From Brevibacillus laterosporus DSM 25 (GTDB lineage Bacteria > Bacillota > Bacilli > Brevibacillales > Brevibacillaceae), in the NCBI RefSeq assembly GCF_002706795.1, contig NZ_CP017705.1, positions 4,997,501 through 5,061,500 on the forward strand: a stretch of DNA of 64,000 nt, written 5' to 3'. Each line of letters opens with the position of its first letter. Position 1 is the first letter of the stretch. The notes under the pieces are model-generated. The model saw only the letters and a program-made list of their open reading frames with translations, made no database searches and had not been told where the DNA came from. Below are positions 43,532 to 64,000 of this stretch, piece after piece. The position numbers were made by a program, and so were the translations under genes.

Positions 43532-43673
43532 AAATACCCTCCCTAGAACTTCTAATACCTTCTGTCTCATTTAGGTTGTGTTACTTTGTGATTTTTTATA
43601 TATGAAAGTAAGGTATAAAAACTGGCTTTGTATTCCAAATTAACTTTGACTACATTTAATGAAGGAGTTAAAA

Positions 43674-44159
43674 ATGGCTACAAAAAACAAAAAATTAACG
43701 GCAACCCAAATCGAATACCAAGCATTTGCAAAAGCGTTAGAACCGCCCCGACCTGTGCTTAAAAATACGATTCGAGCTTTTTGGGTTGGTGGTTTGATTT
43801 GTTTATTAGGACAAGTTATTCAAACCTTTTTCATTCACTTTTTTCACTTTGATGAAAAAAGCGCTGGAAATCCGACCTCTGCTGTTCTAATCGTTATTTC
43901 TGTTCTTCTGACTGGTTTTGGCGTTTATGACAAGATAGCACAATTTGGAGGGGCTGGAACTGCTGTTCCTGTTACTGGCTTTGCCAATTCGATTGCTTCA
44001 GCAGCTATTGAACACAAAAGTGAAGGGTATGTACTTGGGGTAGGCGGTAACATGTTTAAATTAGCAGGATCTGTTATCGTTTTTGGTGTAGTTGCCGCGT
44101 TTTTTATCGCATTACTTAAATGGTTTTTCACTTATGCGGTAGGTATGGGAGGATCTTGA
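43674..44159 (+). CDS. spoVAC: Stage V sporulation protein AC
   Basis: 161 residues with four membrane segments; GLICLLGQVIQTFF and the conserved GGAGTAVPVTGFANSIASAAIEHKSEGYVLGVGGNMFKLAGSVIVFG-type block (read in pieces) identify SpoVAC. In spores it is a mechanosensitive channel subunit for dipicolinic acid. ATG 43674 follows GAAGGAG. First of four tightly packed genes; spoVAD starts one base after its stop. Confidence 0.94.
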   Translation: MATKNKKLTATQIEYQAFAKALEPPRPVLKNTIRAFWVGGLICLLGQVIQTFFIHFFHFDEKSAGNPTSAVLIVISVLLTGFGVYDKIAQFGGAGTAVPVTGFANSIASAAIEHKSEGYVLGVGGNMFKLAGSVIVFGVVAAFFIALLKWFFTYAVGMGGS

Positions 44160-44160
44160 G

Positions 44161-45174
44161 ATGTTAAAGGGACATCAATCTTGGATTTTTCCATCCAAAC
44201 CAACGATTTTATCCACTGCTACAATTGGTGGACCTTTTGAAGCCCAAGGAAAAATTGCAAATGATTTTGATATTCTTCACAGTGACACCTGGCTGGAACA
44301 AGACAGCTTTGAAAAGGCAGAAAAAATCATGCTAGAAGAGGCATTTGACCTCGCAGTAAAACGAGCAAGTTTACAAAAAGGAGATATCAATTATCTGATT
44401 ACAGGAGATTTGATGAACCAAATTATCTCCTCAAGCTTTTCAGCTCGTACCATTGGGGTGCCCTATCTAGGGGTATTTGGTGCTTGTTCAACCTCCATGG
44501 AGGGGTTAGCATTAGCAGCTCAATTGATAGATAGCCAATCAGCTAATTATGTTCTTACCGGAACCTGCAGTCATAATTCGACTGCTGAAAAACAGTATCG
44601 CTATCCCACAGAATATGGTTCACAAAAGCCTCCCTCTGCACAGTGGACGGTAACTGGCGCTGCAGCTGCTATTGTTGCACCTAAAGGGGCAGGGCCAAAA
44701 GTTGTCTCTGCTACGATTGGGAAGGTCGTTGATATGGGTCTGACTGATCCTTTTAATATGGGGGCAGCTATGGCTCCCGCTGCAGTAGATACTATACAAG
44801 CCCATTTTCGAGATATGCAAATTGGACCTGATTATTATGATTTGATTGTTACGGGTGATCTTGGAAAAGTTGGCCATTCGATCGCTGGAAAATTGTTAAA
44901 GAAACATGGGTTCTCCATTCGTGAACAAGCTTTTACAGATTGTGGATTATTAATTTATAACGACAATCAAGAGGTGTTCTCAGGAGGTAGCGGCTGTGCA
45001 TGCTGTGCTACTGTTACGTATGGTCATTTGCTTAATCGGTTAACTAATCGGGAATGGAATCGAATTTTAGTAGTGGCAACAGGCGCTTTACTTTCACCAC
45101 TCAGTTTTCAACAAAATGAAACGATTCCTTGTATAGCACACGCTGTAGCTATTGAGAGGGGGGGAAATGAGTGA
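44161..45174 (+). CDS. spoVAD: Stage V sporulation protein AD
   Basis: 337 residues with a thiolase-like fold: [43 protein letters not shown] and [18 protein letters not shown]. SpoVAD binds dipicolinic acid and helps load it into the forespore. It overlaps the downstream spoVAE gene by four bases (GTGA). Confidence 0.95.
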
Positions 45175-45524
45175 GCATTTTTATTTGGGCATTTATCGTA
45201 GGAGGCATCATCTGCGTCATCGGGCAGTTATTAATGGATGTTGCCAAACTAACACCTGCTCATACAATGTCGACCCTAGTGGTAGTTGGAGCCATTATGG
45301 ATGGACTCGGCTGGTATGAACCGTTAATTAAATGGGCTGGAGCTGGTGCTACCGTTCCCATTACGAGTTTCGGGAATGCCCTAGTCCATGGAGCTATGGC
45401 AGAAATGCAACGCGATGGAATCATCGGGATCATTACAGGCATTTTTGAAGTGACCAGTGCAGGTATTTCTGCTGCTATTATTTTTGGTTTTTTAGGGGCA
45501 CTTGTATTTAAACCAAAGAGTTAG
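45171..45524 (+). CDS. spoVAE: Stage V sporulation protein AE (AEb type)
   Basis: 117 residues with four membrane segments; the block [20 protein letters not shown] is shared with SpoVAC and marks SpoVAEb. GTG start at 45171 within the spoVAD stop; GAGGGGGGG is the ribosome site. Part of the dipicolinic acid channel. Confidence 0.93.
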
Positions 45525-45902: not shown

Positions 45903-46595
45903 TCACACAGGAATCGTAAACTCTATGACAGCGCCACCCTCACCGTGATTATACGCCTTGATTGTCCCTTCATGTTTTTCCACAATCAATTTACAAATGT
46001 ACAAACCAAGTCCAGCATTTGCCTGTGTATACAGTAGCCTTACGATTAGTTCTCTTAACTCTCTCATGCCCATAGGGTCAAGCCCGTTTGCGGGTTCATC
46101 CAATATGATGATGCGAGGGTTATTTAATAAGGATTGAGCAATTCCTAACCGTTGCTTCATTCCCAGCGAATATGTTTTGACTTTGTCATTACCTCTATCG
46201 CTCTTATCCGTCTTAAGTCCAACAATCTCAGGCACTTGTTCAACTTTATGTAATTGCTCTTTTCTCGACATATCGGGGTTTAATCTTGCTAAGTTTTGAA
46301 GGTTTTTTCTTCCAGACATATATTCAAAGAAAATAGGCGTTTCTACCATTGCTCCTATTTCCATAAGTGCCCGCTCCCTATTTGTGGTTACATCCACACC
46401 ATTAATAAGAATTTGGCCATCTGTTGGTTTAATCAGTCCAGTCATCATTCGAATCAGAGTTGTCTTACCTGCTCCATTTGGACCGATAAAACCACAGATA
46501 TCTCCAGCTAGCACCTCAAACGAAATATCATCAATGATTTTTCTTCTACCAATCACCTTGTGTACATGATTGACCTCAATTTTATCTCTTTCATC
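45903..46595 (-). pseudogene. ABC ATPase fused in frame to a histidine-kinase tail (deletion chimera)
   Basis: The open frame (217 codons, from GTG 46556) reads as an antibiotic-type ABC ATPase: GPNGAGKTT, the signature LGMKQRLGIAQ and ILDEPANGLD. At about residue 175 (near 46034) it switches to a sensor-kinase end: GLGLYICKLIVEKHEGTI (G2 box) and GGAVIEFTIPV. A deletion must have joined two genes. In addition, family-like residues DKIEVNHVHK lie in frame upstream of the GTG, while the good start (AAGGAG...ATG 46593-46595) is one frame off. So the N-terminus is probably frameshifted too. The ancestor was likely a Bcr/LanF-type transporter next to a two-component system. Confidence 0.8.
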
Positions 46596-51401: not shown

Positions 51402-51785
51402 TCAAAGAGAAATTGTTGTCTTTAAATAGTAAGGAACACTGTAGGAGTTGTATATGGTAAGAATGTCAATATTTTTATCTTCTACTATTATTGTATCTAC
51501 CTTTACTTCGGGAGTATTGTCCCCTGCAAAAACTGTATTAGAAAGTAAATCGAGTATAGCTGCTTGCTTCATTCTCCCCTCCTCTTTTACCCCAATTACT
51601 TCTCCAGTATCTGATACTCCTATTATTATGTAGCAATCCTTGTCATGAACTGTATTTACAAAACAAAGAATATCATGTAACAATCTTTCGGCGTCTTTGT
51701 GCCATTCTTGCTTGAAATCCCAATAATCGCCTTCGAATCTACCCTCTATTAAATTTTTTATTTTCGTCTCTATACTATAGCTCAT
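51402..51785 (-). pseudogene. Truncated AlbA_2/Schlafen-AAA_4-type protein
   Basis: 127 codons from ATG 51785. EGDYWDFKQEW, LLHDILCFVNT, CYIIIGVSDTGEVIGV and SVPYYLK are typical of the N-terminal AlbA_2 (divergent AAA-4) domain of proteins that are usually 350-500 residues long. It stops soon after SVPYYLK, so the C-terminal part is gone. Such proteins are common near defence genes; a HEPN gene lies just upstream. Confidence 0.65.
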
Positions 51786-51893
51786 TATTGCTCCTTATAT
51801 AATTAAAGTCTACGGTCTCTCATTATTTAATTAATACTCCTAAGACGTTATTAAACATACAGTATTAAATGAATTACTGCGTTATTATAATTA

Positions 51894-53387
51894 CTAAATT
51901 CGTTTCCAATCATCATCATATTGACCTATGTACATGGACGGTGTAAGCTGATCTGAACCTGTGAACTTTACTTTAAGTTGTTCTTCCACGTGTATAGCCA
52001 AAGACAACAAAATAATCCCTTCTCGAACATACGAAAGGAGATGAATTACTGCATTTCTAAAATCATCAATTGTGATTGAATACGCTAACGGATCAACTGT
52101 TTTTTCGCGAAACTCTCTTGTTTTAGGAAATAAAAAACTATCATGAATCTTTAAAATGTTACGAATATTAGCCAATTGTTCTATAGTTGGATCTAAATAA
52201 TGGTGTTTAATTTTTTGTTTTCCGATGTCTTTACACAACCAATAAAAGCCAATTAACGGTAAATTGAACATACCTTCCGTTGTCATTTTCTTTTTCAAGT
52301 CTACAGTCGGGTCATTTTTACCTTTTCCAGCTTTTTTTTGCCAAATAGAACGGTATGACACATTATGTTCTTTGATGCCTAGTGCAAAATAATCATTCAC
52401 AAGATACGCCATTCGATCAAATAGGGAATATAAGCTCCGATATGCATATTTTATTTTTTCCAGACCAATACCATAAGTAGGATAGTCCAACGTGTTAACA
52501 ATATAGACGTCCTTATCAGAAAAATGGGGTGTTCTATTATAAAGTGCATCAAACACCATGTATCTGGCCGATACATACTCTTGCTTAATTTGATTAAACA
52601 AACCATGAAATCTTGGTCCTTCATCAATATCAGCAATAATACTTGGAAGATGAAGAATATCAGTCGCTGCGACTGATTTGGTAAACGCATCATTTAATGT
52701 GTTGAGAAACAACACATGTTTTAAACACCATTTGCGATAGTCGATCTCTTCTTCGGAATCTCCAAGAGAAAATTCACCAAACTCGTATGGTTTTTCTAAA
52801 AAATCGAGAGGGAAAAATTCCTTTAGTTTTTCGATCAATCGTTCATAATGCGCACGTGCCTCATCATGAACATGTTCAGACTGATCTTCTAATACTTCCA
52901 ACAATAATCGATAAGATTCATTAGCAAAAACTGATTGGTGCCCTTCATCATAATTAAAGTAAGCATAATCCATCAAAAATCCAGCATAGTTTCCGATCGC
53001 CATTGGAAATTTTTGTCCTACTCCAATTCTCAAATATGAGAGCGCGTTTATTATTCTCCCACATTGTAGTAAAAGATTAGCAAAGTTAGTATATGCCATA
53101 GAAAGATACGTTTCGCAATAGTTTAAATCTATACTGTCTTCCGTGTAATTGTCCAAATTGTAACGATGTTCAGATAAGTAGTCTATCGATTTTCGAAATA
53201 AAAGCAAGCACATCTCAAAATCTTCTTCGTTATTCTTTTCATCTGAATAGATTAATGCACCTTTGTACTTGAGTTGTATATAATTACTAAAAGAAGTTGC
53301 TCCATGATAAGCAATAATCCCTTTTTCAAGAATATTGTAATTATCGTCATCCATCAGGTTTAAACAATTCTCTGATATTTCCTTCAA
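51894..53387 (-). CDS. LA2681-type HEPN domain protein
   Basis: 497 codons, opened at TTG 53387. N-half of helical, TPR-like repeats. The C-half carries HEPN-type motifs RNILKIH (Arg409-His415) and RNAVIH (Arg444-His449, the classic R-N-x3-H). I recognise the LA2681 family. HEPN proteins are often RNases in toxin-antitoxin or defence systems. The in-frame residues upstream (INESVHIIGNNADKALDDGD) look like the true N-terminus, while the nearest ATG with a GGATGA site (about 53435) is one base out of frame. So the start may carry a 1-base lesion. Confidence 0.75.
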   Translation of the reverse strand: MKEISENCLNLMDDDNYNILEKGIIAYHGATSFSNYIQLKYKGALIYSDEKNNEEDFEMCLLLFRKSIDYLSEHRYNLDNYTEDSIDLNYCETYLSMAYTNFANLLLQCGRIINALSYLRIGVGQKFPMAIGNYAGFLMDYAYFNYDEGHQSVFANESYRLLLEVLEDQSEHVHDEARAHYERLIEKLKEFFPLDFLEKPYEFGEFSLGDSEEEIDYRKWCLKHVLFLNTLNDAFTKSVAATDILHLPSIIADIDEGPRFHGLFNQIKQEYVSARYMVFDALYNRTPHFSDKDVYIVNTLDYPTYGIGLEKIKYAYRSLYSLFDRMAYLVNDYFALGIKEHNVSYRSIWQKKAGKGKNDPTVDLKKKMTTEGMFNLPLIGFYWLCKDIGKQKIKHHYLDPTIEQLANIRNILKIHDSFLFPKTREFREKTVDPLAYSITIDDFRNAVIHLLSYVREGIILLSLAIHVEEQLKVKFTGSDQLTPSMYIGQYDDDWKRI

Positions 53388-54384: not shown

Positions 54385-57300
54385 TCAGCCGAGCAATTTG
54401 CTCAACTCTTCCTCCGTAAGTCCTTCAATCATCTCTATACCCTGTAGTATTTTCTCTGTAATTTGAGATGCATTATCGGACACTTCCGGCATGAATTGGT
54501 TCAACTCCACAGCAATTGCAGAAACAGTGGGATTGTTGAATATACTCTTTATCGGCAGTTCCACACCCGTTTTTTGCTTAATCCGGTTAAGCATTCTCAT
54601 TACCAACAATGAGTGTCCTCCGTAGCTAAAAAAGCTTTCGTTCACACTAATATTTCCCACTTCCATATCGAGAAGCTCAGCCCAGATGGAAGTCAATAGT
54701 TCTTCCAACTGATTATGTGGCCCGATATGCTCTTCAAACGTGGAGCTTCTTTTAGGCATAGGAAGTGATTTGTAGTCGACTTTTCCTACTTGGCTAAGCG
54801 GCAACTTATTCATCAAAACGATCCTAGTTGGTATCATATAATCCGGCAGATTTGACTCTAAGTGAGTTATTAGTAAATCTTTTACTTTTTTCGTACCTAT
54901 ATACTTAAGATCGATATTATTGCTCTGAGAATTACTTGATTTTGGTCCTGTAACATCACGTTTCGCAATTAAGTTATATTTCCCGCCTTCATTTCCTTCC
55001 GGATAGTAGGACACTACATGTTTAAAGCCTTGTGCACTAAGGCGTTCTTTGAGCTTATCGATCTCACTGAGAACTGGAAATACTGTAATTACAAACTGAT
55101 CAATCTTCTCCCAATCCTCGGCGTCAATACCCTCAAGGATTTCCAGTCCACTATTGTTAATATCTATTTTCACTAGTGCTATCGACGTCAATCCTAGTAT
55201 TCGGATTTGTTCAGAAATTGTTGTTAGTGACACATTTACATGTTGGCTTTCTAGAATCTTACCTGTATGAGTGTATGAAAGAGCTTTACCGTCTATCTTC
55301 CCTGCATCTGTGAGATAGCGCTGGCATCTAATAATGTCAGATGTGTCTGAATCCTTGTACTCACCAGAAATCAGAGATAGATCTGGATAATAATCGAACT
55401 GAGTTTCTCTCACAGAATTAGAAAGCCCAGCGTGAACAGGGATTATTGAATTGCTTCCATCAATTCGACTATTTTTGCAAAGGATCTCATAAACAGGATA
55501 AATAGGCTCAAAAGAATAGATACGCAAGCCTTCCACCTTGGATAATAGACTAAGGCTGGACATACCGATATTTGCCCCTACATTAAACACACAATCCCCT
55601 TCCTTTAAGGAAACATCTGGCAGCATGTTTAAAAAGTTATCCCTATAGAGCATATCGATTTCATATTTATTTAGGCCGCATACTTCCATTCCGTTATCAA
55701 GTTCATATAAGTCGTCTTGCGCCAATGTACCTTCTTCCAACATGGTGAGAATGTTATAGCATGTAGATGCAGATTTCCTATCGATTGCAGGATACGCAAC
55801 CAATGTATCTTCACCTCTTATGAGTTCCCGCTTGACCACAACAGCATCTCTAACAGCAGGATGTTGATTTAGATGATGTTCAATTTCTCCGAGCTCGATC
55901 CGGTAGCCACGGATTTTTACTTGAAAATCAAGTCTGCCCAAATACTCAATATGCCCATCCGGTGACCAACGAGCCAAATCTCCAGTCTTATACAACTTAG
56001 TGCCAAACTGAAAAGGATTGTCGATGAATTTTTCCTTAGTCAATTGATCATTATTAAGGTACCCTTGAGCTAAGCCGGCTCCTGAGATGCACAATTCGCC
56101 TGGAACACCAATAGGAGTTGGCTTGCAATTGCTGTCCACAATATAAACTTGAACGTTGCCAATCGGTTTGCCAATCGGTGTGATCATTCCTGTGCGTTCA
56201 CGATTGGAACAAGAGTGAACAGTTGCATATATCGCAGCTTCAGTTGGACCGTAAATGTTCTCAACTTTCACATTCTTAAATGTTGTGGTAGTTTGCTCCA
56301 CAAGCTCTTTCGGAAATGCCTCGCCAGCGACCATCAGGTATTTGATGGAACAGTTTTCCAGAAAGGATTTGTTTCCTTGTGCTGATTGCAGGAACTCTCT
56401 AAGCATTGAAGGTACAAAGTTGATATGCGTAACTCTATAATTCTCAATGTGACGGATAAGCTCATACGGAGACTTTTCATCGCCCGGAGGCAGAATAACC
56501 AAGTGCCCTTTGCCAACAAACCAACCAAACAACTCTGAAATGGATACATCGAACGTATAATTAGTCTTGAGTATATAGTAATCATTTTCTTCAACAGGGT
56601 ACATCTCCTCAAGGAAATAGAGTGTATTCATGATGCTTTTGTGTGTTACACAAACTCCTTTGGAATTACCTGTCGTTCCCGATGTATAAATCACATAGGC
56701 AAGGCTATCATTCGTAATTGCCATGCTATTTTCATCATTGTACAGATGACCGTGCTCAGACTTCTCCCTCGAAACTGTGTCTTTCAGATCTATAATTAAA
56801 GGACGGTCAGTCACCCCGTTCTCATGAAGGAGGTTATTCAGCACATTGCTTATTCGTTCTTTATATTTGTCGTGCGTTAACACAATGCCAGCTTTACTAT
56901 CAGTTAATATGTGTGCCAAGCGCTCTTCTGGTATCTCCGGATCAATCGGAATATAGGCAGCCCCCGCTTTCATCACACCGAGCAGTCCTACAATCATCTC
57001 TATAGATCGATCAGCTACTACCGCAACAAATTTGTTCATCGCTGCACCGCTCTGGCTTAAATCGTTGGCAAGGTCAGTCGACATCTGGTCCAGTTCACCG
57101 TATGTAACTGAATTGTCTCCATAGAGAATGGCTATACGTTCTGAATTTTCTTGAGCCCGACGACGAAATACTTGATGAATACACATATCGTTAGGATAAT
57201 CTCGTTCGGTCGTATTCCAAACCTCAACGACTTCCGCCAATTCAGGCTGAGGTAGGATAGAAATCGTTGAAACAAGGGTACTCGTGGCCGCTTCTTTTGA

Positions 57301-60300
57301 CATTGCGTTGATGATTTCTGAAACAGCGTTCTCCAGATAGCTGTGGATGGACTCACAAGAGAGTGACTGCACAGCTTGGATCTCGACCGAGAAATCGACA
57401 CCCTGATCATCAATGGATAAAAACAGCGGATAATTAGTACGCTCAAAGACACCCACAAGTGACTTAATACCGAACTGTGCAAGTTCATCTTCATTAATTC
57501 GTTCACTAGCGTTCATGAAGCGGAAGTTTAACACAGCGTTAAACAGCGGAATATCGTTATCCAAGCTGGAACAGCTCTGGGCGAGAGACAAAGATGCTTG
57601 CTCATATTTAATTAGGTTTCGTAATATTACATCAGTTTCTTGCAGCAACTGTTTGACTGATTTGTTGGCGAGAGAAACACGTAACGGCAGTGTGTTGATA
57701 AAATTCCCAAGCATTCTCTCAGCTCCCTGTACTCCCTGCAATCGACCAGACAGCACGGTTCCGAAGACGACATCCTCTTTACCCGAGCAGGTAGAAATAA
57801 CCATTGCCCAAGCTGCGTGAAAAATACTTGCAGGGCTCAGATGCATCCTTTTTGCGAATGCACGGATATTGCTGGATAAGTCTGCAGGGAATGACTTGCT
57901 AAAAACATTAATGATGTTTCTGTCAACATGTACATTTGCTAATCCATATGGCAACGTTGGTTCATTCAAATCACCTAGCGTTCTTTCAAAGAAAGCTTTC
58001 GCTTCAAGCGAGTTCACCTGTTTCATTGTGTGTGCAATGAACTCCCTGTATGGAATAGGAGTACTCAGACTAGCTTCCTTCCCTTTTAAATAAGCAACAA
58101 CTTCTGCGAACAAGAATCCAAGCGAGGTGGCATCATCCACAAGGTGGTGCATATTAAACAACAAATACCACACGCCTGTTTCTGAATCACATACGGCCTT
58201 GAGTTGCATCATTGGGGCTACGCTGATGTCCATCACATGAGGACCGGATAGCATGCTTCGGATATACTGCTGCGCATCAACACCTGGAGTAGGCTGAATG
58301 ATTTCCAAAACTAGTTCAGCTCGTCTCCAAACCACCTGTACAGGTTGCGAAACTCCCTTGCTAACAATTGCAGTCCTTAGCACATCGTTTCTATTAATTA
58401 CGTTCTGCAACGCAAAAACAAACTGGTCTAGCCGCTCTCTGTTGTCAAATGAAAATAAACCTGATAGCACATAAGGATCATTTTCCACGTCCATCAGGTG
58501 ATGGAAAAGAATCCCTTCTTGCAGAGGTGCCAGCGGATAGATATCTTGAATGTTAGCTGACCCGCCTTGTGTGTCAGATACAATGCTGTCAATCTCCTCG
58601 TCACTAAGTGACACCAGGGTGAGCATGTCAGCCGTAATATGTTTACATCCCTCCGGAATCTTATTAGGAGGAATCATATAAGCCTCCAGCGTAGCCGCAT
58701 CTTGAATTTCCGATGCTAAATGTGCGAGTGTCGGTGCTTCAAATACACTTCGTATATCTGCCATCAATTCATATTGTTGAAGGCGAGCAAGCAGTTTAGG
58801 AATAAGCAAGGAGTGTCCGCCTAACGCAAAAAAGTTGTCATTCACTCCGATTTGACCTGCTTCAAAACCTAAGATTTCTGTCCAAATATCTACTAGCAGT
58901 GTCTCCGTTTCAGTGCGTGGGGCCACATACACTTGAGATGTATATGCATCCCATTCCGGGGCAGGTAATTTCGAGCGGTTTGCTTTACCGTTTGCGGTGA
59001 CAGGAATCTCATCGAGCACGACATATGCACTAGGGATCATGTGATCAGGCAGCGTCTCTTTAAGAACCTTCGTCAGCGTGCCCCCTACATCCGTATCTTG
59101 AGCTCCGTCAGACAGAACAACATAAGCGACTATACGTTGATCGCCAGGGTTGTCCTCCCGCACGATCACCAAAGAAGAATCCACTTCCTTAACGCTGTTC
59201 AGCTTTGCTTCAATCTCACCAAGTTCAATGCGTACTCCGCGAATCTTCACTTGATCGTCACTACGACCGCAATATTCTAAGCTACCGTCTTGTAACCATC
59301 GAACTATATCTCCTGTCTTGTACAAACGGGCATTTTTATCATTTGAAAAAGGATTAGCAATGAATTTTTCGGCGGTGAGTTCAGGGTTATTCAAATAACC
59401 TCTGGCAAGACAGTCTCCACCTATGTAAAGCTGTCCCCGGCAGCCCACTGCCTGAGGAGAGCAGTGATTGTTCAGTACGTATAACTGTACATTTTGAATG
59501 GGCTTACCAATAGGAACAGCGTTAATCCCATTGTTATTTGAGCAAGCCCAATAACTCACATCTATAGCAGCTTCCGTCGGTCCGTATAGATTAATAAGCG
59601 GCGCGTGATTCTGTGCATAGTGCTTTGTAACAAGATCTGGCGCCAGCGCCTCACCACTACAAAATACATGACGAATGGTGCGACATAAACTCCACGCTTC
59701 CTGTCCCAGAATAATCCTGAACATGGATGGTACAAAATGGAGTGTTGTGACGCCTGAGGACTGAATCAACGAAGTCAGATACTCAGGATCTGCGTGACCA
59801 CCCGGTTTGGCGATGACCATGCGTGCGCCAGTGATAAGAGGCCAGAAAAATTCCCAAACGGATACATCGAAACTAAAAGGGGTTTTTTGCAAAACGACAT
59901 CGTATGTACTGAGTTTATATTCTTTTTGCATCCAGTCTATACGATTTGTCAGTGCCCGATGCTCTACCATAACGGCTTTCGGTAGCCCGGTGGATCCCGA
60001 AGTATACATTACGTATGCTAGATTGCTCGTCTCTACCCCGCTCTCTGAACGTGTCAAATTAGTGGTAGGTTGATTCGCAAATACTGCTTCTCCCCCCAAA
60101 TCCTCACCGGTATCAAGAAAGGCAACATTCATATTTTCCGTGGGCAGCGCGTCAGCTAGATATGACAGAGTGAGCATACGATTGACACCTGCATTCTCTA
60201 ACATGTAGTTTATGCGTTCAGCAGGATAAGCTGGATCTATGGGCAAGTAAGCACCCCCCGCCTTAACAATCCCTAAGATACCAATCACCATCTCAAAAGA

Positions 60301-61950
60301 ACGCTCTGCACAAAGCGCTACCACAGTTTCCGTTCGAACACCAGATTGGCGCAGGTAAGCAGCCACTTGATTTGCCCGTTCATTTAGTTGTTTATAGCTC
60401 AATTTTAGCCCCTCAAATTCCAAAGCAACGGAGTCTGGATGGGCGTTGACTTGAGCTTCAAAGATTTCATGCAGGCAACGCTCCTCAGGATATGAAACCT
60501 TTGTACGATTCCAGTCAATAAGCACTTGATTTCGCTCTTTTTCAGATAAATAACAGTAGCTTCCAATAGGTGCTCTTGGGTTACGCATAACCGCTGTAAG
60601 TAAGTTATTATAGTGGTTCATCATGGAGGCAATGTCTTTTTCGTCAAATTTGTTTGCATCATATTTGAAGCACACTACAAATCGATCCTGCTTTTCATAC
60701 ACCTCAAGTGACAACTTGAACTCACCTTCCTGGCTAAGTTTCTCAACGTACTCAACTTCACCAAGTGTTGGAGAGTTTGCCGAGATTTTAAACAGATTTT
60801 TGTTTTGGAAGGTATAAGTAACCTGAAATACAGGCGGTGTCTGTATGTTTCTCTGGATGTTTAGATCCTGAACAATGCGGGGAAATGGATACATGGAATG
60901 ATCCATCCCTTCTGCGATCGCATAGTTAAGTTCAGTCAAATAGTCTGAATAAAACCTATCTTCATTAACCATACTGCGTAGCGGTATCATATTTATAAAG
61001 TAACCAACTACATCATAGAACTCCAGTTTTGGCCTTCCCATCGTAGGGATACCGATTATCAGGTCATTCTCCCCTGTATATCGTTGCAATAATATCTGAA
61101 ATATCGAGAGAAAGAAGGCCGTAGGCTTAACCCGAAGCTCTGTGCAGAATTCAGATACGGCAGTGCATTTGGAACCAGTTAGTTGGGTTGCCAAGGTTGT
61201 CCCTTGTGCACTGACACAGGTTTCATTTTGCTGTTCAATGTCAAGTAATAAAGTTGGGAGCTCACCTTCGAGCTTGGACAGCCAATATTCTCTATCTGTC
61301 TTACTTTTTGTTCCGAAAAGATAATCTTGTTCCCATTCAACGAATTGGTCATACATAATGACTTCTTCAGACACTTCAGCATCACGACAGTTCACAGCAG
61401 CTTCATAGAACGAGAGCAGATCGGCCAAAAAAACAGGGGTTGACGCGCCATCAAATACCAAGTGATGAACGACAATTAGAGCAATATGTTCGATTGGAGA
61501 TATGCTATAAATGTTCATTCGTATGAATGGATCACGAGCCAGATCGAACAGTTTCTTTGCCTCCTCCTTTAAAAGAGATAAGAGCTCGTCTTCATCAGGT
61601 ACTTCGTTTTCGATTGACGAAAATGTCTCAGGATTGAAAGGCTGGGGCGCCAAATAAGGCACCCCTCCATCTTCAATTATTACGCAAGAAAGTTGATCGT
61701 GACGGGTAACTACCAGACCAAACGCCTGTTTAAGCTTCTCTATATCAACATTAGCACGAATACGGAAGCATATTGGAATATTATAAACGTTAGAAGTCGG
61801 ATCAAGTTTGTTCAGCATCCACAAACCCTTCTGACCCTCTGAAAGCGGATATCTGATCTCGTTATTTTTGAGCTTCTGATAGAACTCTAATACTTCTTCC
61901 ATCGTATACTTTCCGTTTTTGAACCCCAGTAATATTTCGTTTTCATTCAT
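54385..61950 (-). CDS. Two-module NRPS: C-A(Ser)-PCP-C-A[FkbM MT]-PCP
   Basis: 2521 residues. Domains: docking-like N-terminus (1-33); C1 (about 35-475, HHLVFDG 162-168); A1 (about 490-1000, YTSGSTGLPK) whose code residues read D-V-W-H-F-S-L-I-D-K, a serine code; PCP1 (Ser1047 in GGHSLL); C2 (about 1137-1580), with PLAPLQEGILFHHL and HHLVDDA, most like dual epimerising domains; A2 (1590-2053 and 2340-2397), code D-V-S-N-M-A-I-I-Y-K, no assignment; an FkbM-type methyltransferase (about 2085-2335, VFNVGANIGMSS) inserted between A8 and A9; PCP2 (Ser2447). No thioesterase; it ends EGLTEEELSKLLG. AAAGGAG precedes ATG 61950, 15 bases after the PKS gene. Confidence 0.95.
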   Translation of the reverse strand: MNENEILLGFKNGKYTMEEVLEFYQKLKNNEIRYPLSEGQKGLWMLNKLDPTSNVYNIPICFRIRANVDIEKLKQAFGLVVTRHDQLSCVIIEDGGVPYLAPQPFNPETFSSIENEVPDEDELLSLLKEEAKKLFDLARDPFIRMNIYSISPIEHIALIVVHHLVFDGASTPVFLADLLSFYEAAVNCRDAEVSEEVIMYDQFVEWEQDYLFGTKSKTDREYWLSKLEGELPTLLLDIEQQNETCVSAQGTTLATQLTGSKCTAVSEFCTELRVKPTAFFLSIFQILLQRYTGENDLIIGIPTMGRPKLEFYDVVGYFINMIPLRSMVNEDRFYSDYLTELNYAIAEGMDHSMYPFPRIVQDLNIQRNIQTPPVFQVTYTFQNKNLFKISANSPTLGEVEYVEKLSQEGEFKLSLEVYEKQDRFVVCFKYDANKFDEKDIASMMNHYNNLLTAVMRNPRAPIGSYCYLSEKERNQVLIDWNRTKVSYPEERCLHEIFEAQVNAHPDSVALEFEGLKLSYKQLNERANQVAAYLRQSGVRTETVVALCAERSFEMVIGILGIVKAGGAYLPIDPAYPAERINYMLENAGVNRMLTLSYLADALPTENMNVAFLDTGEDLGGEAVFANQPTTNLTRSESGVETSNLAYVMYTSGSTGLPKAVMVEHRALTNRIDWMQKEYKLSTYDVVLQKTPFSFDVSVWEFFWPLITGARMVIAKPGGHADPEYLTSLIQSSGVTTLHFVPSMFRIILGQEAWSLCRTIRHVFCSGEALAPDLVTKHYAQNHAPLINLYGPTEAAIDVSYWACSNNNGINAVPIGKPIQNVQLYVLNNHCSPQAVGCRGQLYIGGDCLARGYLNNPELTAEKFIANPFSNDKNARLYKTGDIVRWLQDGSLEYCGRSDDQVKIRGVRIELGEIEAKLNSVKEVDSSLVIVREDNPGDQRIVAYVVLSDGAQDTDVGGTLTKVLKETLPDHMIPSAYVVLDEIPVTANGKANRSKLPAPEWDAYTSQVYVAPRTETETLLVDIWTEILGFEAGQIGVNDNFFALGGHSLLIPKLLARLQQYELMADIRSVFEAPTLAHLASEIQDAATLEAYMIPPNKIPEGCKHITADMLTLVSLSDEEIDSIVSDTQGGSANIQDIYPLAPLQEGILFHHLMDVENDPYVLSGLFSFDNRERLDQFVFALQNVINRNDVLRTAIVSKGVSQPVQVVWRRAELVLEIIQPTPGVDAQQYIRSMLSGPHVMDISVAPMMQLKAVCDSETGVWYLLFNMHHLVDDATSLGFLFAEVVAYLKGKEASLSTPIPYREFIAHTMKQVNSLEAKAFFERTLGDLNEPTLPYGLANVHVDRNIINVFSKSFPADLSSNIRAFAKRMHLSPASIFHAAWAMVISTCSGKEDVVFGTVLSGRLQGVQGAERMLGNFINTLPLRVSLANKSVKQLLQETDVILRNLIKYEQASLSLAQSCSSLDNDIPLFNAVLNFRFMNASERINEDELAQFGIKSLVGVFERTNYPLFLSIDDQGVDFSVEIQAVQSLSCESIHSYLENAVSEIINAMSKEAATSTLVSTISILPQPELAEVVEVWNTTERDYPNDMCIHQVFRRRAQENSERIAILYGDNSVTYGELDQMSTDLANDLSQSGAAMNKFVAVVADRSIEMIVGLLGVMKAGAAYIPIDPEIPEERLAHILTDSKAGIVLTHDKYKERISNVLNNLLHENGVTDRPLIIDLKDTVSREKSEHGHLYNDENSMAITNDSLAYVIYTSGTTGNSKGVCVTHKSIMNTLYFLEEMYPVEENDYYILKTNYTFDVSISELFGWFVGKGHLVILPPGDEKSPYELIRHIENYRVTHINFVPSMLREFLQSAQGNKSFLENCSIKYLMVAGEAFPKELVEQTTTTFKNVKVENIYGPTEAAIYATVHSCSNRERTGMITPIGKPIGNVQVYIVDSNCKPTPIGVPGELCISGAGLAQGYLNNDQLTKEKFIDNPFQFGTKLYKTGDLARWSPDGHIEYLGRLDFQVKIRGYRIELGEIEHHLNQHPAVRDAVVVKRELIRGEDTLVAYPAIDRKSASTCYNILTMLEEGTLAQDDLYELDNGMEVCGLNKYEIDMLYRDNFLNMLPDVSLKEGDCVFNVGANIGMSSLSLLSKVEGLRIYSFEPIYPVYEILCKNSRIDGSNSIIPVHAGLSNSVRETQFDYYPDLSLISGEYKDSDTSDIIRCQRYLTDAGKIDGKALSYTHTGKILESQHVNVSLTTISEQIRILGLTSIALVKIDINNSGLEILEGIDAEDWEKIDQFVITVFPVLSEIDKLKERLSAQGFKHVVSYYPEGNEGGKYNLIAKRDVTGPKSSNSQSNNIDLKYIGTKKVKDLLITHLESNLPDYMIPTRIVLMNKLPLSQVGKVDYKSLPMPKRSSTFEEHIGPHNQLEELLTSIWAELLDMEVGNISVNESFFSYGGHSLLVMRMLNRIKQKTGVELPIKSIFNNPTVSAIAVELNQFMPEVSDNASQITEKILQGIEMIEGLTEEELSKLLG

Positions 61951-61965
61951 GTGGGCTAAACTCCT

Positions 61966-64000
61966 TTACTGGCGAAATGATATCTTCAATTTTTCTAGTC
62001 CGACTTCTCCATTTTTAAAATCTTCTAGCATTTTCATCTTTCTTTCTATTTCATTGATATTAGATTCAAGAGGAACGCTATCAGAATCAGAAACTTGTAC
62101 TAACTTTTTCTCGCCCTTATCCTTATCAATTGGATCATTAGACGTTTGAGAAACCAGCTTGTCTTCGAGACAATCAGCAAGTGCTCTTATCTTCGTAAAA
62201 TTCAGTAATTCAGTGGATAATAATTGGATACCGAAATCCTTTTCTACTTTACGTTGGAGTCTGATCCATGCAAGAGAGTCTATGCCCATAGAATGTATAT
62301 CCTTGTCGACAGGAATTTGTTCCATTGCCACTCCCACGAATTCTGCAAAAAACTCAATCAGATAGGCGACAAAATCAGGCTTACCGGTATGCGCTTGGTT
62401 TTTGACCTGCTCAACTGGTGCTAAACTTTGCTGCGGCAATGTTTTCGAATAAAGTCCCTCTGAATGCCAGTACCTACTTTTCTTAAAGGGATATGTCGGA
62501 AACGACATAATCGTACGTTGTGACTGATCATGCAGACTGGACCAGTCTACGCGGCAACCCTTAACCCAAAGCGCCGCAAGTTTATCCAGGTCTCGATCGG
62601 AAACCAACGCATGTACAAACTCCTCACCTCGTCGACCTGTAACAAGCAATTCCAACTCGGCAAAATCGGTTTCTGCATTTCCTGTATATATCGCCTGATT
62701 ATGAGATCCCTTGGACGAAGACTTTCCTAAGTAAGAAACTAGATTGGCCACCACATCATCCACGGATCGGGCAGTAAAGGCAAGACGTACAGGAAGCTCA
62801 TTGCGTCCAAGCTGCAACGTATACGCTAAATTCGTTAAAACTATCTCCTTGTTCTCTTCTAAATAATGAATGGAATTTTCAGCTACCCTGCGAAGTGCTT
62901 CATCATCTTTGGCAGATAACACAATGAGCTGAGAATTTATTTCCATATCCGCAGGGGCATTCGTTTTTCTATTTATATATTCCTCAATAATTAAGCTCAC
63001 ATAACTACCGCCGGCACCAATTGAATTGATTAATGCCCGTCTTGGGGAATAGCCTGACTGGTGTTGATCTTGCTGAGAAACTTCCGGCCATGTCTCAAGT
63101 TCGCTTGTCAACCTGAATGGTAGATTTTCTATGTTGAGATTTGGGTTTACCTGTCCGAACTGCATTATCGGTGGGATTATATTATTTTCAAGTTGCAATA
63201 CCACCTTTGTTAACTGAGCGATTCCCGAAGCAGCTTCCGGATGTCCTATATTCGACTTCACCGAACCTATTGGGATAGCTTTTTCTGTGTTTCTAAACAC
63301 ATGGGCCATTGCATTAATCTCGACTGCATCGCCAAGTGCCGCACCATTGGCAGCGGCCTCAATATACCCGATATCATCGGGAACGAGCCCTGCACGGGAA
63401 AGGCAATCTTCAATTACGTTTACCTGTGTTTTGTATCTAGGTGCCATAAACCCGTTGGAGCGGCCGCCGTGCATAGATGAACTCGACTTGATCACCGCCA
63501 TAATATTATCACCATCTTTGATTGCATCACTGAGAGGTTTTAACAATACGGCACCGACACCTTCTGACGGCAAATATCCGTCACCATCACTAAAGCTTCT
63601 GCTATGAGGGTTGCTTGCAAGAAGCTGCGTCTGGCTCAACGCGATATATTTTTTAGGATCAATACTCAAATTTACCCCGCCGGCAATTGCCAGTTTGGCT
63701 TCACCCTGTGCCAGCGCATTACACGCCAGATGTATCGCCATCGCTGAAGAAGAGCACATATTGTCCACAGCAACACTAGGGCCTTCAAAACCGAAATAGT
63801 AAGATACCCGATTGGCTATCATATTGTATGATGAGATAGAAGTTAATGCATTTCCGACGATGTCAGTGTTTTCTGCTTGGTACATCTGATACATCGAACC
63901 TACATAAACTCCTACGCGCCGATCGTACTGAATGTCTATCTTGGACTGAGTTATACCGTTTCCTTCAAGCAATTCCCAAACAGCTTCCAAAAATATTCGT
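61966..64000 (-). CDS. Trans-AT polyketide synthase, KS(non-canonical)-ACP end, runs off right edge
   Basis: The frame is open to the window edge; at least 674 residues are visible. The KS shows the active Cys in DNMCSSSAM and KSNIGHPEAASG, but the HGTGT histidine is replaced (EAAANGAALGD). No acyltransferase follows: a linker with SFPTYPFKKSRYW leads straight to an ACP (Ser572 in SMGIDSLAW). So it is a trans-AT module whose KS probably transfers rather than extends. The end (KMLEDFKNGEVGLEKLK) and the NRPS start (LLGFKNGKYTMEEVLEF) look like matching docking helices. The NRPS starts 15 bases downstream. Confidence 0.92.
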   Translation of the reverse strand, partial: RIFLEAVWELLEGNGITQSKIDIQYDRRVGVYVGSMYQMYQAENTDIVGNALTSISSYNMIANRVSYYFGFEGPSVAVDNMCSSSAMAIHLACNALAQGEAKLAIAGGVNLSIDPKKYIALSQTQLLASNPHSRSFSDGDGYLPSEGVGAVLLKPLSDAIKDGDNIMAVIKSSSSMHGGRSNGFMAPRYKTQVNVIEDCLSRAGLVPDDIGYIEAAANGAALGDAVEINAMAHVFRNTEKAIPIGSVKSNIGHPEAASGIAQLTKVVLQLENNIIPPIMQFGQVNPNLNIENLPFRLTSELETWPEVSQQDQHQSGYSPRRALINSIGAGGSYVSLIIEEYINRKTNAPADMEINSQLIVLSAKDDEALRRVAENSIHYLEENKEIVLTNLAYTLQLGRNELPVRLAFTARSVDDVVANLVSYLGKSSSKGSHNQAIYTGNAETDFAELELLVTGRRGEEFVHALVSDRDLDKLAALWVKGCRVDWSSLHDQSQRTIMSFPTYPFKKSRYWHSEGLYSKTLPQQSLAPVEQVKNQAHTGKPDFVAYLIEFFAEFVGVAMEQIPVDKDIHSMGIDSLAWIRLQRKVEKDFGIQLLSTELLNFTKIRALADCLEDKLVSQTSNDPIDKDKGEKKLVQVSDSDSVPLESNINEIERKMKMLEDFKNGEVGLEKLKISFRQ

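Follow-up and report, generated by a model that had tools for sequence, protein, structure and literature searches.

The second adenylation domain (A2) of a nonribosomal peptide synthetase (NRPS) in Brevibacillus laterosporus DSM 25 is interrupted by an FkbM-type methyltransferase domain lacking a set of residues that its relatives keep, and we lean towards reading this insert as a catalytically dead methyltransferase kept for a structural role, within an FkbM-interrupted A domain whose specificity region is of the alanine type. The gene lies in the 64,000-nucleotide stretch of DNA analysed here (the window). Its frame is uninterrupted and intact, and Pfam searches of the 2521-aa protein recovered two Condensation, two AMP-binding, and two PP-binding matches, one AMP-binding_C match (residues 912-989, in A1), and no thioesterase. 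The features are as follows.

54385-61950, minus strand: NRPS gene, C-A1-T-C-A2[FkbM]-T, 2521 aa (reading frame and Pfam)
60523-61854, minus strand: C1 domain, residues 33-476 (Pfam Condensation)
58984-60462, minus strand: A1 domain, residues about 497-989, uninterrupted, code DVWHFSLID, Ser-type (Pfam and code alignment)
57241-58593, minus strand: C2 domain, residues about 1120-1570 (second Pfam Condensation stretch; limits estimated)
55792-57180, minus strand: A2 core, residues 1591-2053, code DVSNMAIIY (code alignment, identity comparison)
54946-55791, minus strand: FkbM-fold insert, residues 2054-2335, between A8 and A9 (Pfam, predicted fold)
55555-55590, minus strand: SAM motif I VFNVGANIGMSS, residues 2121-2132 (alignment to relatives)
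55504-55512, minus strand: SAM motif II FEP, residues 2147-2149, E2148 kept (alignment to relatives)
55129-55173, minus strand: post-beta4 motif VKIDINNSGLEILEG, residues 2260-2274 (alignment, profile rows, model)
55075-55098, minus strand: beta5 motif QFVITVFP, residues 2285-2292 (alignment, profile rows, model)
54751-54945, minus strand: A2 C-terminal part, residues 2336-2400, A9/A10 with LPDYMIP and GKVDY (sequence, A2 model)
54511-54699, minus strand: T2 carrier domain, residues 2418-2480, GGHS serine present (Pfam and sequence)
54388-54468, minus strand: C-terminal tail, residues 2495-2521, putatively docking-helix-like (sequence reading)
61966-63999, minus strand: 3' part of the upstream 4048-aa polyketide synthase (PKS), from the same cluster and truncated at the end of the window

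The NRPS gene comes last, in the direction of reading, in a PKS/NRPS cluster that spans approximately 75 kb and runs past the right end of the window. The cluster looks like a trans-AT system, since no built-in AT was matched in the PKS genes seen and, by sequence reading, a separate AT protein is encoded upstream. To the right of the window, a sister NRPS (3050 aa, G000:C1:5112951-5122103) carries a Methyltransf_12 insert with an intact EIGCGTG motif in its second A domain (code DVQSGGAIA), at the same site as the FkbM insert, so that two kinds of insert occur within one cluster. The sister NRPS has three C domains and no thioesterase match; its last C domain is terminal and may release the cluster product. 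A 5998-aa PKS of the cluster (G000:C1:5103000-5111966) has an N-terminal AprA_N region, a winged-helix region, and Methyltransf_36, resembling an apratoxin-type loading module. Just past the cluster end, a low-GC segment (51402-53387, minus strand) encodes an LA2681-type HEPN protein and a 127-aa AlbA_2 (Schlafen) frame. Elsewhere in the window, a 217-aa frame (45903-46556, minus strand) joins part of an ABC ATPase to the end of a histidine-kinase ATPase domain and looks like a deletion fusion, and spoVAC- and spoVAE-like genes flank spoVAD next to a YetF/DUF421 gene (43659-45524, plus strand), all being ordinary sporulation genes.

The initial annotation had placed an FkbM domain between A8 and A9 of A2, and both the profile match and the flanking motifs bear this out. 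The domain search it proposed returned PF05050 (Methyltransf_21) at residues 2123-2293, above the curated cut-off (28.7 against 22.7 bits; E 1.8e-6). The score was 33.0 bits for residues 2040-2345 alone, and the insert was the sole PF05050 match in the 5.4-Mb genome at E up to 0.001. The limits given for the insert (residues 2054-2335) correspond exactly to 54946-55791, with A8 (QVKIRGYRIELGEIE) ahead and LPDYMIP and GKVDY behind, and the quoted motifs VFNVGANIGMSS, FEP, and VKIDINNSGLEILEG are present. Assignment to a common N-methyltransferase family (Methyltransf_12, 25, or 11) was rejected, as only PF05050 matched the insert at E up to 0.001. A chance profile match was ruled out by the confident fold model, by the shared site, and by the relatives, 50/50 of which, when aligned, matched PF05050 at E up to 0.001. 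The insert has the lead-in of embedded inserts: in many embedded relatives the match begins from query residue 4, and in most stand-alone Paenibacillus proteins near query residue 30. No repeat flanks both insert borders, and a phage search gave no match.

Judged by sequence, FkbM inserts that immediately follow an A core occur widely and are partly in print already, which contradicts the earlier description of the insert type as unusual. A tblastn search of the insert against plasmids gave 49 records, nine of which were fetched, annotated stand-alone FkbM proteins being left out. In eight of these nine (Nostoc and Rhizobium, two each, and Methylocystis, Eleftheria, Paenibacillus, and Bradyrhizobium), the FkbM domain separates A8 from A9/A10 of an NRPS; in the ninth, from Burkholderia ubonensis, it lies outside any A domain. 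Genome contigs were scanned with the patterns GANIG[LM]F[STG]L and [DA][LF][LV]KI[DN]V[ENH][KNH][SA], the best 80 of at least 487 confirmed stretches being returned; after filtering, the set comprised 89 inserts. Sixty-nine of them, including those of the window and its ortholog, sit directly behind an A core, leaving at least 67 others; the remaining 20 are unconfirmed in this respect, some of them being found in long frames or on cut contigs, others in short frames (about 300 aa). Among the 67, an A8-like motif precedes the insert in 58 and an A9-like motif follows within 160 aa in 60, and at least two of those without a near A9-like motif hold a second methyltransferase in between. Going by record titles, the collected rows span nine phyla, and it is the plasmid relatives and these rows across phyla that make the insert type widespread. 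One FkbM-interrupted NRPS gene, from Nostoc sp. LPT, is split into three frames and represents a pseudogene or an assembly error. Closer to home, 2 of 99 relatives carry the insert, namely the genome itself and Brevibacillus dissolubilis CHY01, and these are also the carriers (2/5) within the genus. An even sample of the phylum (398 Bacillota) contained only the genome itself, and a broader profile run against an even sample of the class (398 Bacilli) gave five matches: both Brevibacillus inserts and three others, each within a frame of roughly 300 aa.

Compared with the 87 other rows of the set, the window and its ortholog form, by alignment, an outlying pair among FkbM inserts. In SAM motif I, the Asp of DxGxNxG (column 2123) is present in 87/87 other rows and is replaced by N in the window (NVGANIG) but not in the ortholog (DIGANIG). 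Column 2258 holds Asp in 84/87 rows (A in the window and T in the ortholog, respectively), column 2265 Glu in 82 and Gln in 5 (N and H), column 2268 Glu in 87/87 (G and A), column 2289 Glu in 87/87 (T and T), and column 2291 His in 85/87 (F and S). The E/E/E/H set after beta4 and beta5, as defined from the relatives, is therefore absent, reading N/G/T/F in the window and H/A/T/S in the ortholog. A tyrosine found in 56/56 non-redundant rows is deleted in both. Where conservation reaches 95% or more, the window deviates in 8/29 columns and the ortholog in 10/29, against a maximum of 4 and a median of 1 in a leave-one-out comparison of the 56 non-redundant rows. With a 90% cut-off the values are 12/45 and 15/45 against a median of 2; one row (L020) reaches 10/46, and the separation of the pair from the other rows is weaker.

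Because the genome scan was driven by patterns, rows found by profile in whole genomes were compared as well. The three Glu are kept in 17/17 of these full rows and the His in 16/17, of which only 4 lie in NRPS-sized frames and some may repeat rows of the set. Pattern bias was checked with these profile hits, which agree, and with the plasmid hits, neither group having been chosen by pattern. Misalignment at the lost motifs is unlikely: around beta4 and beta5 the window is gap-free against its relatives, a single row excepted, in which an insertion follows beta5. Both Brevibacillus inserts retain GANIG, the FEP Glu, and D2263, and with these and the predicted fold kept, SAM binding is plausible, which weighs against a dead insert. 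So does the number of carriers, the loss of the residue set being seen in only two sequences.

The AlphaFold model of the insert (pLDDT 87.5, pTM 0.87; 50 sequences) has a class I methyltransferase fold. It matched the FkbM protein 2py6 (Z 16.1, rmsd 2.2, 168 residues aligned), and many other class I methyltransferases gave comparable Z values, including a catechol O-methyltransferase (Z 16.9) and the tRNA methyltransferase 3lhd (Z 16.9); Foldseek's top-ranked matches were others. A search by sequence for a solved relative gave nothing beyond a weak motif-I match to 3a27. Model strands 220-223 and 246-251 correspond to residues 2259-2262 and 2285-2290, which puts the lost Glu/Glu pair of the model directly behind beta4 and the lost Glu/His pair where beta5 ends. 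In catechol O-methyltransferase these same loops hold metal ligands, and on that ground the lost set may have formed the site of the acceptor and the base. A model of the interrupted A2, insert included (pLDDT 85.6, pTM 0.81), aligned over residues 2-795 with the uninterrupted A domain 4d4i, 475 residues superposing at 1.8 A. TioS (PDB 5wmm), the insert of which is a backbone N-methyltransferase, shares the two-part layout of A2 (645 modelled residues aligned, Z 48.5), but the 14 A rmsd indicates that the parts are differently placed. The TioS insert is also cited in that role in a review (PMC11355689).

The ortholog in B. dissolubilis CHY01 lies in a syntenic cluster, and its insert is 61.5% (~62%) identical to that of the window. 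Between the two, dN is 0.243 for the insert and 0.204 for the gene, with a dS of 2.18 that refers to the whole gene, the insert-only dS being saturated. The insert evolves somewhat faster than C1, A1, C2, the A2 core (68.6%, 0.214), and T2, although the difference is not large; conservation is higher (74%) for the N-methyltransferase insert in the sister NRPS. Third-position GC is 0.41 and 0.60 in the two species, yet the frame is open in both, and 60/78 fourfold sites of the insert differ. On these substitution patterns the FkbM insert is under purifying selection, and a stretch kept alike at such a distance is not what would be expected of functionless sequence; the conservation argues for some function. 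Recent decay of the insert is unlikely, given an open frame in both species and a residue loss that the ortholog shares.

One function compatible with this conservation would be a re-tooled FkbM enzyme that N-methylates alanyl-S-T, or a new or adjoining amide, and has dropped the base used to deprotonate an alcohol, in effect an O- to N-methylation switch in place inside the interrupted A domain. We consider this rather unlikely, although several observations speak for it. The insert retains GANIG, FEP, and the predicted fold and is still under purifying selection, amines require no strong base, and the insert of the sister NRPS is an N-methyltransferase by family. EreM, an FkbM enzyme, N-methylates backbone amides (PMC9259500), and most A8/A9 inserts in the table of the review are N-methyltransferases (PMC11355689). 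Against it, 5/6 former-site positions differ between the orthologs (N/H, N/H, G/A, F/S, and A/T; only T/T is shared), a pattern more in keeping with lost constraint than with a newly conserved site; the Fisher test for divergence at the former site gave p 0.039, for a comparison picked after seeing the data. The cluster, moreover, already holds an ordinary N-methyltransferase insert for another residue.

The specificity codes of the relatives mostly point to oxygen-bearing substrates. Nine-residue codes were read by alignment for 64 interrupted domains and typed by regular expressions built on code tables, giving 25 Thr-, 19 Ser-, 7 Asp/Asn-, 4 Glu-, and 2 Gln-type codes and 7 others, a distribution that fits side-chain O-methylation. 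All 57/57 domains of the Thr, Ser, Asp/Asn, Glu, and Gln types keep E2268, E2289, and H2291. The window and its ortholog, both with DVSNMAIIY, are among the seven others; in these two domains with an alanine-type code the whole Glu/Glu/His set is gone. Of the other five odd codes, three (L013, L020, and L065) come with the full set and two lack the His alone, replaced by D in L019 (code DV-QMGMIW) and by N in L045 (code DMYNMGMIH). The frame that contains L019 carries the annotation of a luciferase-like monooxygenase protein.

These counts also bear on a second alternative, in which the insert is an active O-methyltransferase with an atypical site that acts on another hydroxyl within reach on T2, for example that of the module-1 Ser or one in the polyketide chain. 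The code of module 1 is Ser-type, which would place Ser next to Ala in the predicted chain, and the insert retains its fold and the core SAM motif. We nevertheless regard such an activity as quite improbable, because the Glu/Glu/His set of 85-87/87 other rows is gone and 44/64 coded domains are Thr- or Ser-type for their own residue.

The A2 code D-V-S-N-M-A-I-I-Y had been read correctly in the initial annotation, the code positions being numbered by landmarks; the code, which had been left without a match there, is identical in the window, in the ortholog, and in a BaeN-like alanine domain. The latter belongs to a 5433-aa NRPS of Bacillus velezensis, where a ketosynthase comes after the NRPS profiles, an arrangement expected of BaeN; its size, layout, and ketosynthase neighbour suggest that this record is BaeN. 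BaeN incorporates alanine (PMC4397504). Over the whole A2 core, identity to the A domain of this NRPS is 50%. The likeness is limited, in sequence comparison, to the specificity part: residues 1770-1960 are 56.5% identical to the BaeN-like domain as against 40% for the next domain outside the genus, whereas residues 1591-1769 give 38.2% against 37.6% and in residues 1961-2053 the BaeN-like domain ranks fifth. For the tail and T2, the best matches outside the genus are Streptomyces FkbM-interrupted modules (up to 42%), with the BaeN-like tail in 58th place. This mosaic suggests that an Ala-type specificity region may have been exchanged into an FkbM-interrupted domain, an exchange that is not sharply drawn because the A2 core beyond the specificity part does not point to BaeN. 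In a tree of the inserts, the Brevibacillus pair is not firmly placed, with a warning of long-branch joining, and descent from a Ser/Thr domain is therefore not established.

Codes predict substrates imperfectly, and the proposal of the initial annotation, a hydroxylated residue methylated on the PCP, would require that the A2 code be misread, with A2 loading an oxygen-bearing residue that the insert methylates. Most relatives act on such residues by code, and codes beyond the common set exist. We attach little probability to this reading, given that the code is identical to that of the BaeN-like domain, the closest specificity region outside the genus, and that the motif losses are independent of the code. 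Judged by code only, the A2 substrate (DVSNMAIIY) would not be one with a methylatable side chain of the KtzH or ColG type.

In the favoured reading of a dead but retained insert, module 1 would load Ser and module 2 would then load Ala, which is left unmethylated. A2 would join a BaeN-like alanine-type specificity region to an FkbM insert and to a tail typical of FkbM-interrupted modules, and an alanine-type substrate would offer no side-chain oxygen to methylate. With the acidic/His set lost after beta4 and beta5, and with the fold and most of the SAM site kept, the insert would most likely be dead towards O-methylation. It would persist because the A domain is built around it, through the spacing or packing of Acore, Asub, and T. 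Reported domain removals touch on this idea from both sides. In-frame deletion of the FkbM domain in hangtaimycin biosynthesis gave no detectable demethyl product, and the authors grant that the NRPS may have been inactivated (PMC10624959); this outcome would agree with a structural need. For KtzH, a domain without the insert has been built, with loss of methylation reported (PMC11355689); such inserts may therefore be dispensable, which may speak against structural need. We found no report of an inactive methyltransferase domain in an NRPS in the open-licence literature, and absence from print is not claimed.

If dead yet conserved, the insert would be a natural test of the structural need for inserted domains in interrupted A domains, a need that bears on engineering by insertion or removal. 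For FkbM inserts in general, O-methylation should not be called before the Glu/Glu/His set and the A-domain code have been checked, and here the match to an alanine domain offers an answer to a code that the initial annotation left unmatched.

FkbM-interrupted A domains are already known, and the variant described here is defined by the loss of the residue set together with the alanine-type code. The alanine module of BaeN in the bacillaene system shares with A2 the nine-residue code and the specificity region; unlike A2, the BaeN-like A domain is uninterrupted, and a ketosynthase follows its carrier. Among methylating systems, the A8/A9 inserts listed in one review include KtzH (O-methylation) and ColG (both O- and N-methylation) (PMC11355689), and ColG, which has two methyltransferase domains, is described as N,O-dimethylating Ser-PCP (PMC10127204). 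In our set, a row from Moorena bouillonii PNG5-198 (L073), the only one of its genome's 7 hits in an NRPS-sized frame, has a Ser code and an FkbM domain followed by an N-methyltransferase-like stretch. From the species, the code, and this order of domains, we infer that L073 is ColG, which would make the O-methyltransferase of ColG a member of the FkbM family. So read, ColG of the columbamides has FkbM behind the A core as A2 does, but L073 keeps the Glu/Glu/His set, whereas the window has an Ala-type code, no such set, and a single insert. Module 16 of the hangtaimycin synthetase HtmB1 likewise contains a domain called FkbM family and assigned to O-methylation (PMC10624959). Its authors describe a DxGxNxG motif, in which the window has N for D, with the downstream residues lost. 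The aurantimycins contain O-methyl-N-hydroxy-Ser, attributed to the ArtF methyltransferase domain (PMC5031334). The producer, Streptomyces aurantiacus JA 4570, is represented in our set by an FkbM insert (L087) whose readable code end (M..VH) is Thr-type, so that its identity as the Ser domain of ArtF is unproven. KtzH of the kutzneride system, with an A8/A9 insert like that of A2, O-methylates Ser (PMC11355689), and from both KtzH and ArtF the window differs in its predicted substrate and in its catalytic residues.
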